Assembly (NCBI GenBank): GCA_029251525.1
Contig: JAQXDE010000029.1
Coordinates: forward strand, 1 to 64,000
Direction: 5' to 3'
DNA: 64,000 bases
DNA from: Saprospiraceae bacterium
GTDB lineage: Bacteria; Bacteroidota; Bacteroidia; Chitinophagales; Saprospiraceae
Part shown: piece by piece, positions 10,553-15,845 of the stretch
Numbering within the stretch: the first letter of the stretch is position 1
Layout of the letters: each line of letters opens with the position of its first letter
The notes under the pieces: generated by a model
The model's input: only the letters and a program-made list of their open reading frames with translations
The model's database searches: none
What the model was told of the DNA's origin: nothing
Program-made: the position numbers and the translations under genes

Positions 10553-11160
10553 AAAGAGACGACTCCGTAAATTGAATAGTCTTTTTTAATGGGACAACTG
10601 AATTTTGAAATAATCGACTTTATTTTCAATAATAATTGTGGTTAGAATTTTCCAAAACCCTTTAATTATTCTGTATCTCTCTATGCACGAGTAATTAGAT
10701 GTCAGGCTAATTAATTAATTGCGGTATTAACTCAATAATTTTTGTTCACCATCAAAATAAGAAAACTTAAAGTCACATATTTTTTTTAACAAATCAATCA
10801 ATTTTCCTTTCGTTTTTCAGCCCTTATTACTGCAAAATATATTCCTAAAAAAAATGCTGGTAATTAGGATACATTCTATAGGTATTATCGTTGCATATCA
10901 TCCCTAAAATTGCTACGATTGATTGTAGCGTAAGAACTAACCAAAATTTTTTTCTTCTTTTTTCAAAAAAAATAATGTTTTTTTGAAAAAAAGTAGCTTA
11001 GTAAGTTGTTGTAAGTCAATGACTTATGTTTAATTATTAGTTGATGTAACTATTTTTTCAATTATTGAAACCAGTCTACCTAAAGAATTTTATTTCTCGA
11101 TCTATATTTACATCGAACATACAAACACATTAATTTTACAAACACTTAAAAAACAAAAAG
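10553..11160. other. 608-base A/T-rich intergenic region
   Basis: I see no gene here. It contains a long T/A inverted repeat (10958-10991), a smaller GCTAC/GTAGC hairpin near 10910-10928, and the leader of the small peptide gene at 11161. No convincing TAnnTTTG promoter at correct spacing was found for the peptide; TATATTTA at 11103-11110 is the nearest candidate. Confidence 0.5.
10958..10991. repeat. 14-bp A/T inverted repeat
   Basis: TTTTTTCAAAAAAA and its exact reverse complement are separated by six bases (ATAATG). With T/A homopolymers on both sides it could act as a weak bidirectional terminator between the CotH gene and the peptide gene. Confidence 0.5.
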
Positions 11161-11307
11161 ATGAATAATATTTCAAAATTCGCAAGCAAATTAAATGCAA
11201 CACAAGTAATTAACAAGAAAAGATTAACTAGTATCAAAGGCGGTGCGAGCGATCCACCACCATTTGGTTTAGGAGTGAAAAGTGATCCACCACCATTCGG
11301 ATTATAG
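11161..11307 (+). CDS. RiPP-like small peptide precursor with double-glycine leader and repeated SDPPPFGL core
   Basis: This 48-codon frame is MNNISKFASKLNATQVINKK, then RLTSIKGG, then the tail ASDPPPFGLGVK plus SDPPPFGL and TAG. A lysine-rich leader ending in IKGG is the hallmark of double-glycine leaders and of the Bacteroidota 'natural product precursor' families, cleaved after GG by C39-type peptidase transporters. The 20-residue tail holds two copies of SDPPPFGL separated by GVK. The DNA of the two copies differs at three bases, all silent in this frame. They are also silent in the overlapping minus-strand frame, so this does not prove the strand. A-rich leader (AAAACAAAAAG) and a strong terminator at 11368-11396 bracket a small monocistronic unit. 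No modification enzyme or transporter is adjacent, so it is an orphan precursor. Its function is unknown. Confidence 0.68.
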   Translation: MNNISKFASKLNATQVINKKRLTSIKGGASDPPPFGLGVKSDPPPFGL

Positions 11308-11365
11308 ATTACAAAAAAAGTAAGAAGGATCAACTTAGACAAATCATCAAAATCAGTTGATTTTA

Positions 11366-11397
11366 AAAATCCTACTCATTTGAGTAGGATTTTTTTA
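11366..11397 (+). terminator. Rho-independent terminator after the peptide gene
   Basis: ATCCTACTC pairs with GAGTAGGAT around loop ATTT (11369-11390), preceded by an A-run and followed by a seven-T run. It sits 60 bases after the peptide stop, isolating that gene from the downstream subtilase. Confidence 0.88.
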
Positions 11398-14689: not shown

Positions 14690-15349
14690 TTATGTTCTTA
14701 ATTTTTCCATGTCAGAAAGCAATTCTGCTAATTTTTCCATCAAATTTCCATACACTACTTTTAAATCTAACAAGTACATTTTTTTGGAAAAGAACGAAAT
14801 CATTACTGTTATTATAATAACTACAATAATTCCATATAGGGGAACTCCGCTGAGCAAAATAGTATTAGGAAACTCCTCCTTAATCCATTTCGTTACGATG
14901 TGTCCGAGGAAACCTTTGTCGCCAACATCCAAAAACCAAAAGCCAAAAACCATTGATAAAAAGATCAACGGGTAAACCACCGTATATACTTTTCCGATTG
15001 CGGTAATTTTCTCATTTAACCATCCATCATAGGATTTCAGATATTGATAACTACTTTGGGTTTTGTCGATACTTTTTAAAGACTCAAAATGTTTTTTACT
15101 GATAAGTACTAAAATATTAAAAATAAAAAAAATCGGAATTCCCATATATTTCATTCCTATAGAAATAGAAATAATCAAAATAAAAAATGAGAAGCCGACT
15201 AAGAAAATTAAGTTCCATTTATACATTTTTTCAAACTTATCCAATAAGTGAATTGATTTTTGATTGTATAAATCATTTAACTTTGGTGCTACCAATGCAT
15301 CGTCTTTTAAAAAACCTTCTTTCCAAATTAATTCGATTGACTTATCCAT
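14690..15349 (-). CDS. Membrane protein of unknown function, co-transcribed with ECF sigma factor
   Basis: This 219-residue protein has four or so hydrophobic segments (about 45-65, 67-88, 120-140, 170-190) and charged, probably cytoplasmic, N- and C-terminal regions rich in lysine and glutamate. Its start overlaps the end of the ECF sigma factor gene by eight bases, so the two are translated together. Proteins placed like this are often anti-sigma factors or membrane partners of the sigma factor. No zinc-binding anti-sigma HxxxCxxC motif is visible, so this role is inferred from position only. Confidence 0.68.
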   Translation of the reverse strand: MDKSIELIWKEGFLKDDALVAPKLNDLYNQKSIHLLDKFEKMYKWNLIFLVGFSFFILIISISIGMKYMGIPIFFIFNILVLISKKHFESLKSIDKTQSSYQYLKSYDGWLNEKITAIGKVYTVVYPLIFLSMVFGFWFLDVGDKGFLGHIVTKWIKEEFPNTILLSGVPLYGIIVVIIITVMISFFSKKMYLLDLKVVYGNLMEKLAELLSDMEKLRT

Positions 15350-15845
15350 GTATTTTATTTTTTAAGGTTAATAATTTTTTGAGTCGAGTTTTGATTCGTT
15401 TAATTCGGACGCCAATGTTATTTGGGTTTGTACCAATGATATCTGCAATCTCTTGATAAGATTTCTCTTCGAGGTAAAGCAAAATGACAGCTCGATCAAT
15501 TTTTGATAATTGTCGGATAGCATTGTATAATTGATTTAAAGATTCATCTGAAAAAGTATGATTTTCAACCGACTCTTTATTTGGTAATTCATCAGCATTA
15601 AATTGTGATTGCTTTTTCTTTTTATCTTTTTTCATCAAGGTCAAACAAACATTTAGAGACAACCGGTAAATCCAAGTGGACCATTCTGATTGTTCCTTGA
15701 AGTTGTCTTTCGTTCGCCAAATCTGCAAACAAACCTCTTGGTAATAATCCTCAAAATCTTCTTGCGTATTAGTGTACGCCTTGCAAATCTTGATGATGAT
15801 TGCGGAAAAAGGTAAAATTGATAATGTGTAAAAATCGCTACTCAA
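15342..15845 (-). CDS. ECF-type RNA polymerase sigma factor
   Basis: This 167-residue protein has region 2 at about 20-85 (EDFEDYYQEVCLQIWRTKDN, then WSTWIYRLSLNVCLTLMKK) and region 4 at about 105-160 (LSKIDRAVILLYLEEKSYQE, IADIIGTNPNNIGVRIKRIK). The layout and length are those of sigma-70 ECF factors. A polar lysine-rich linker lies between the two regions. It is followed by an overlapping membrane protein that may regulate it. The target promoters are not known. Confidence 0.9.
   Translation of the reverse strand: MSSDFYTLSILPFSAIIIKICKAYTNTQEDFEDYYQEVCLQIWRTKDNFKEQSEWSTWIYRLSLNVCLTLMKKDKKKKQSQFNADELPNKESVENHTFSDESLNQLYNAIRQLSKIDRAVILLYLEEKSYQEIADIIGTNPNNIGVRIKRIKTRLKKLLTLKNKIHG

Follow-up and report, generated by a model that had tools for sequence, protein, structure and literature searches.

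The gene studied here lies on the forward strand at positions 11161 to 11307 of the window, the 64,000-nucleotide stretch of Saprospiraceae DNA that was analyzed, beginning with an ATG at 11161 and ending with a stop codon at 11305-11307. Direct reading gives the 48-aa product as MNNISKFASKLNATQVINKKRLTSIKGG / ASDPPPFGLGVK SDPPPFGL, the whole precursor being the leader part MNNISKFASKLNATQVINKKRLTSIKGG joined to the core ASDPPPFGLGVKSDPPPFGL. Of the 24 bases in each SDPPPFGL unit, 3 differ between the two copies (AGC/AGT, TTT/TTC, GGT/GGA), and every difference is silent, as the first-pass annotation of this DNA had noted; each unit holds a single Ser, and the core contains neither Cys nor Thr. 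The ORF is closed by its own terminator, also as previously described, and no downstream gene lies within its unit. A similar hairpin follows the locus-A peptides in the congener G004. The neighboring genes encode a CotH/LTD protein and an S8 subtilase, both with T9SS sorting tails, and these two flanking genes give no hint of a function in peptide maturation. The features of the locus are as follows.

10868-10894, reverse strand: distal inverted copy of the bipartite site, GATAC...GTTGC, 22-nt period; degenerate and weak in the window, tentative
11046-11072, forward strand: bipartite direct repeat GTAACT-N15-GAAACC, 21-bp period; candidate site of the TPR-AraC regulator
11076-11092, forward strand: CTACCTAAAGAATTTTA block, conserved in both loci of the window's genome and in congeners
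11103-11110, forward strand: TATATTTA, probable -7 element, invariant in all five window-genus promoters aligned
11161-11307, forward strand: precursor gene, 48 codons plus stop; paralogue at G000:C38:248460-248606, intact copies in two congeners
11161-11244, forward strand: double-glycine (GG) leader, M1-G28, ending in SIKGG; K-GG conserved in 25 diverse relatives
11248-11271, forward strand: core repeat 1, SDPPPFGL, by direct reading; PPP invariant in 25 relatives
11281-11304, forward strand: core repeat 2, SDPPPFGL, by direct reading; relatives carry one to three repeats
11365-11394, forward strand: intrinsic terminator, 13-bp stem and T tail; shuffles give 0.2

Coding strand and promoter

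Several lines of evidence indicate that the ORF at 11161-11307 is a real coding gene, beyond what chance would yield. Ten copies in three species of the window genus preserve the start, leader, GG, core, and stop, and pN/pS across these copies is 0.198 in the plus frame. The first-pass annotation had warned of an overlapping minus-strand frame, with good reason: the antisense ratio is equally low at 0.167, and so substitutions alone cannot choose the strand. The minus frame, however, neither starts nor ends at any conserved position, and a minus-strand gene was rejected on this ground despite its substitution ratio. The plus-strand assignment made in that annotation is upheld by the conserved promoter block, the ATG context, the terminator, the tandem copies with their own starts, and the conservation of KGG...PPP across genera.

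Loci A and B share a conserved region upstream of their peptide genes, which is also maintained across species; its landmarks are GTAAC[CT]-N15-G[AC]AACC (21-bp period), CTACCTAA[AG]GAA, and TATATTTA, the last of which we take to be a probable -7 element of the Bacteroidota type TAnnTTTG. The bipartite site is positioned 114-119 nt before the ATG in the window genus and 124 nt before it in the genus g118, where it reads GTTACC-N15-GCAACT and has a second copy upstream; clear GTTAC...GTTAC versions of the distal copy are present in the congeners. Within the 5.25-Mb genome of the window, perfect copies of the extended motif are confined to the two peptide loci, and all remaining matches carry 3 mismatches, equal to the reversed control. 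Instances of the promoter motif are few, and its pattern was broadened after the g118 site was seen. With a 70-column matrix, six peptide promoters reached 85-101 bits, five of which had built the matrix, the sixth being that at G004 C5; nothing else in the loci scanned rose above 17. The bipartite core alone was discarded as a regulon marker: its 18 matches in the window's genome compare with 16 in the reversed control, so that only the extended promoter, and not the short motif by itself, is specific. What appears to be an extra promoter at G004 C5:57048 lies at a contig end and is most likely part of a broken locus A whose array opens contig C93.

A family of double-glycine peptides in Saprospiraceae

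A search of 61 related genomes for homologues of the window peptide found, within the window's genome, a paralogue 85% identical on a different contig (G000:C38). Copies 70-94% identical occur in two congeners, often as tandem arrays: G004:C33 and G004:C93 hold two each, G001:C169 three, and G001:C289 two. The congeners carry one to three tandem copies with two to three core repeats each, one G004 copy having three (ASDPPPFGLGIKSDPPPFGLGVKSDPPPFG). The leader search that the first-pass annotation had suggested thus returned homologous leaders, both in congeners and in other genera. Its description of the gene as an orphan proved wrong at genome scale, since the paralogue locus adjoins a TPR-AraC hybrid sensor and a promoter block is common to both loci. 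A degenerate extra SDPP..FG unit occurs right after the stop codon in G001 copies (L029:300-360, L030:5626-5650), a remnant of a longer repeat; losses as well as gains have therefore probably shaped the repeat number. A conserved 106-aa lipoprotein-like gene with no Pfam match follows the locus-B peptides in two species (L027:10139-10459, L030:6100-6420) and seems degraded or absent in the window's genome.

Beyond the genus, a profile built from nine diverse peptides had matches in 54 of 298 Saprospiraceae genomes and 30 of 112 genera; the peptides found have a GG leader, and most of them a [DEC]PPP core. In an alignment of 25 diverse members, neither GG nor PPP varies and the K that precedes GG hardly does, in agreement with the double-glycine leader proposed at first reading; members were partly collected by similarity to a PPP query, a choice that favors PPP. 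The loci fall into four groups by their neighbors. In group a the peptide directly precedes a non-hybrid TPR histidine kinase and has a core of DPPPW with an acidic tail, or CPPP; related peptides with KRKDRP-type cores also belong here. Peptides of group b lie beside TPR-AraC hybrids, those of group c beside a 156-189-aa protein (mostly KGG..CPPP), and those of group d beside a protein of roughly 500 aa; the scanned members of the group c and group d partner proteins had no Pfam match. In G001 a group-c leader bears the core SDPPPFGHQEN, identical to that of group-b peptides on other contigs, as would be expected if the core were a species-specific message. The genus g118 (G122:C188), found with the sensor region rather than the peptide as query, has a tandem pair of TPR-type AraC hybrids and, after them, two peptide genes of the GG-CPPPCC kind with the core GIGGNSCPPPCC; Pfam does not call the TPR of these hybrids, and their sensor parts share only about 24% identity with the query. 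Outside the Saprospiraceae family, a phylum-wide profile scan gave only weak leader-like matches; one of these, L206, was set aside, its core being different and Cys-rich.

Two protein types recur beside these peptides. The first, of 156-189 aa (IKPLEEVLAYKN...), accompanies many KGG..CPPP peptides (L032:8924-9457, L034:10071-10586, L165:1812-2369, L166:7879-8385, L167:530-1021, L174:5487-6056, L183:9103-9579, L184:9055-9525) and is possibly a second kind of partner; one member scanned alone had no Pfam match. The second, of about 470-540 aa, lies beside GG peptides ending in PPPP..IIDG-like cores (L035:677-2293, L178:755-2248, L179:8056-9504, L186:9954-11438, L187:7961-9379, L194:9555-11084, L203:8316-9839), again with no Pfam match in those scanned.

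The window peptide itself has no match in Pfam or NCBIfam, where no family passes its cut-off. Against curated RiPP models (TIGR04149, the class I lanthipeptide leader, and the pinensin leader) a few relatives match weakly and the window peptide not at all. For TIGR04149 one relative reaches E 8.6e-4, and the relative for which a score is given attains 11.3 bits against the curated cut-off of 25; relatives reach up to 13.8 of 20.4 bits for PF03047 (ComC) and 16.4 of 25 bits for PF14406 (Bacteroid_pep), relative to the gathering cut-offs. Like the peptides of TIGR04149 and PF14406, those described here have short lysine-rich GG leaders in Bacteroidota; they differ in scores that fall below the cut-offs where shown, in having a kinase partner, and in that no radical SAM gene was seen among the 25 most frequent of 76 neighbor families. 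The window peptide belongs to a previously unnamed Saprospiraceae family tied to TPR sensor kinases.

Sensor kinase partners and probable export

The partner at locus B of the window's genome (G000:C38:245349-248060) is a sensor of about 900 aa with a signal peptide, TPR, TM, HisKA, HATPase_c, REC, and AraC-HTH. In three species (G000:C38, G004:C33, G001:C289) the sensor and the peptide genes of this locus share a strand, and the peptide genes follow the sensor at a distance of 400-468 nt downstream, the interval being 400 nt for the G000:C38 paralogue; the window's own copy does not adjoin a sensor. The promoter data make good but not conclusive the case that the neighboring AraC-type hybrid binds the bipartite site, for which it is the candidate regulator. 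Across the family a TPR histidine kinase lies within 1 kb at 18 of 47 peptide loci, against 0.34 expected from the 2 TPR-HKs that the remaining 567 kb of these regions contain, a count that is mildly circular in that the three detection queries came from TPR-HK-paired loci. With g118 counted, 12 genera show the pairing. The other 29 of the 47 loci have no nearby TPR-HK, and some of them adjoin the two other protein types.

The association follows kinase ancestry. In a tree of 53 TPR kinases, a quick tree with some long branches, the peptide-linked kinases form a block of 15 of 17 in the non-hybrid lineage and another block in the hybrid lineage, and the peptide-link label requires 4 changes versus 15.9 when shuffled (0 of 500 shuffles as low). 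KRKDRP peptides pair with one kinase subclade (five loci, two genera), the CPPP loci L034 and L191 with another, and DPPPW peptides with the remaining ones. Generic TPR-HKs resembling the sensor mostly lack GG peptides, which indicates a clade-specific association and not a general trait of TPR kinases. In a class-wide kinase search beyond the family, the five full-length matches inspected were not accompanied by GG peptides, a weak control in that most other matches covered the kinase domain only.

A signal peptide and a single TM are predicted in the sensor, placing its TPR domain outside the inner membrane. Residues 1-365 of the G004 orthologue, modeled from a two-sequence alignment, form a predicted TPR solenoid running into a long helix (pLDDT 80). 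The top PDB matches of this model are TPR superhelices, several with bound peptides (KLC1/2, LGN), and RapF ranks 33; since TPR folds are all alike, the match is consistent with peptide binding and no more.

In all likelihood the peptide is exported. The first-pass annotation was right that no C39 transporter lies nearby, and no exporter is linked; its suggestion that the maturation machinery is encoded elsewhere is supported for export by two intact C39-ABC exporters on other contigs of the same genome (G000:C48, C57), each followed by a gene that by inspection resembles an HlyD-type adaptor. Strong C39 matches occur in 33 of 34 peptide-positive genomes versus 10 of 20 peptide-negative ones (p = 7e-5), a difference to which the unequal genome sizes of the two groups may contribute.

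The window's genome has a further TPR histidine kinase, related to the peptide-linked clade, at a contig end (L275:5900-6284, G000:C49). The contig terminates about 280 nt upstream of the kinase in a terminator-like hairpin, and so the assembly may lack a peptide gene at this place. Protease genes of an HtrA/DegP-like type (Trypsin_2 plus PDZ) lie near group-a peptide and kinase pairs (L033:8262-9404, L169:6553-7725, L170:11890-13062, L171:10545-11156, L177:7816-8970), possibly with a peptide-processing or regulatory link.

A proposed pheromone circuit and its alternatives

That many relatives adjoin a dedicated membrane sensor kinase suggests that the peptide is probably a message between cells. 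Of the roles first offered for it, signal, toxin, or metallophore, the genomic context favors the signal and ranks the other two lower. We consider it probable that the peptide is a pheromone exported by way of its GG leader, that TPR receptors in the periplasm sense it, and that it feeds back on the promoter of its own gene. Cleavage after GG and release of a proline-rich core of roughly 20 residues (ASDPPPFGLGVKSDPPPFGL) would fall to a C39 peptidase-ABC exporter whose gene lies elsewhere; the core may be trimmed further into single SDPPPFG units. The periplasmic TPR solenoid of the dedicated hybrid sensor (G000:C38:245349-248060) would bind the peptide, and the phosphorylated sensor would then bind the GTAACC-N15-GAAACC direct repeat before both peptide loci and drive them; the 21-bp period of this repeat is that expected for an AraC-type dimer. 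Peptide-driven expression of both loci would close a positive feedback loop, and in other Saprospiraceae a non-hybrid TPR histidine kinase would serve as the partner of this peptide type.

Known systems provide partial parallels. Like the ComC/BlpC pheromones of Gram-positive bacteria (receptors ComD/BlpH), the peptides described here combine a GG leader and short core with a C39 exporter in the genome, a neighboring dedicated histidine kinase, promoter direct repeats about two helical turns apart, and tandem or paralogous peptide genes. The ComC/BlpC receptor, however, is a polytopic HPK10 kinase with LytTR output, whereas an extracytoplasmic TPR solenoid with one TM and output through REC and AraC HTH is predicted here; the Gram-negative Saprospiraceae setting, the unlinked exporter, and the multi-repeat PPP core also differ. 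Autoinduction by the mature peptide, as in ComC-like systems, is a putative parallel to which the shared promoter site lends indirect support. RRNPP systems (Rap, NprR, PlcR, Rgg) likewise pair a peptide with a TPR-domain protein, and RapF is among the structural matches of the modeled sensor. Their receptors are cytoplasmic and the peptide is re-imported, whereas the TPR domain here is predicted to be periplasmic and is fused to a histidine kinase, and the peptide has a GG leader. The locus-B partner, as distinct from the peptide, has the HTCS composition of HisKA, HATPase_c, Response_reg, AraC HTH, N-terminal sensor, and TM. The well-known HTCS of Bacteroidota sense glycans through other sensor domains and are located in PULs; unlike them, the TPR sensor adjoins the gene of a putatively secreted peptide. 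A survey of putative Bacteroidales RiPPs found TPR genes in two clusters and an HK/RR pair in another and suggested signaling (PMC10352776); in its excerpted text the clusters carry PCAT and modification enzymes, and neither a GG-PPP family nor a TPR-kinase fusion is described. Excerpts from the open-access literature contain no description of a GG-PPP peptide/TPR-kinase pair, this survey being the nearest, and an earlier report elsewhere is possible.

The main alternative is that the peptide is output only, an effector (bacteriocin, morphogen, or host-directed) switched on by the TPR hybrid and not its ligand. The predicted regulon of the hybrid in the window's genome, the two peptide loci only, is equally expected for an effector, and near-identical tandem copies would raise its dosage. 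We nevertheless regard this as unlikely: no recurring immunity-like gene was seen near the peptide loci, the cores are very hydrophilic or acidic (DPPPWPEDDDD), and the non-hybrid kinase, though it has no DNA-binding domain, keeps its linkage to the peptide gene and follows it in phylogeny, for which a ligand-receptor pair is the better fit. A more improbable variant keeps the ligand within the envelope, the peptide staying periplasmic or at the surface and reporting export capacity or envelope state to the TPR kinase. The HtrA/DegP-type genes near the peptide in four group-a neighbor sets (L033, L169/L170, L171, L177) would suit this variant but were not seen at window-genus loci, and core repeats and species-specific cores on unlinked loci (SDPPPFGHQEN, two G001 leader classes) resemble instead a species-specific message.

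Maturation into a modified RiPP (lanthipeptide, rSAM-modified, or graspetide-like) by distant enzymes is very unlikely. The leader does resemble Bacteroidota GG leaders, and one relative has the TIGR04149 match given above, but the RiPP-like label of the first-pass annotation finds no support: the window peptide matches no curated model, no tailoring enzyme or radical SAM gene occurs among the 25 most frequent of the 76 neighbor families, and the window core has one Ser in each unit and lacks Cys and Thr. Least credible of all is a translation sensor acting in cis, in which the PPP that is invariant in the diverse relatives aligned would stall ribosomes, as polyproline does without EF-P, since the window ORF has its own terminator and no gene downstream in its unit, the leader is conserved as a GG leader, the copies are in tandem, and GG peptides beside the same kinase clade carry KRKDRP and not PPP.

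A broader extension of the pheromone reading, which we advance tentatively and at somewhat less than even confidence, is a lineage-specific modular network of [DEC]PPP peptides exported by way of GG leaders, in which the repeat cores are species-specific and can be exchanged and every leader class has a partner of its own; the TPR-AraC hybrid, the TPR histidine kinase, the protein of about 170 aa, and that of about 500 aa would be these partners. If so, the TPR kinases would provide the first case of a peptide pheromone recognized by a TPR receptor outside the cytoplasm, and the circuits would be the first in Bacteroidota to combine a GG pheromone with a two-component system. Cell-to-cell signaling in this phylum is poorly understood, and its TPR sensor kinases are numerous, most without known ligands. 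The family offers a concrete guess at a ligand and receptor that links a widespread sensor type to a mechanism and is open to testing with one purified domain and a synthetic peptide of 20 residues. It also exemplifies multi-repeat GG precursors in an environmental group of Gram-negative bacteria.

Elsewhere in the window, a minus-strand ORF pair at 14690-15845 appears, by inspection, to encode an ECF-type sigma factor (15342-15845) and a membrane protein (14690-15349).
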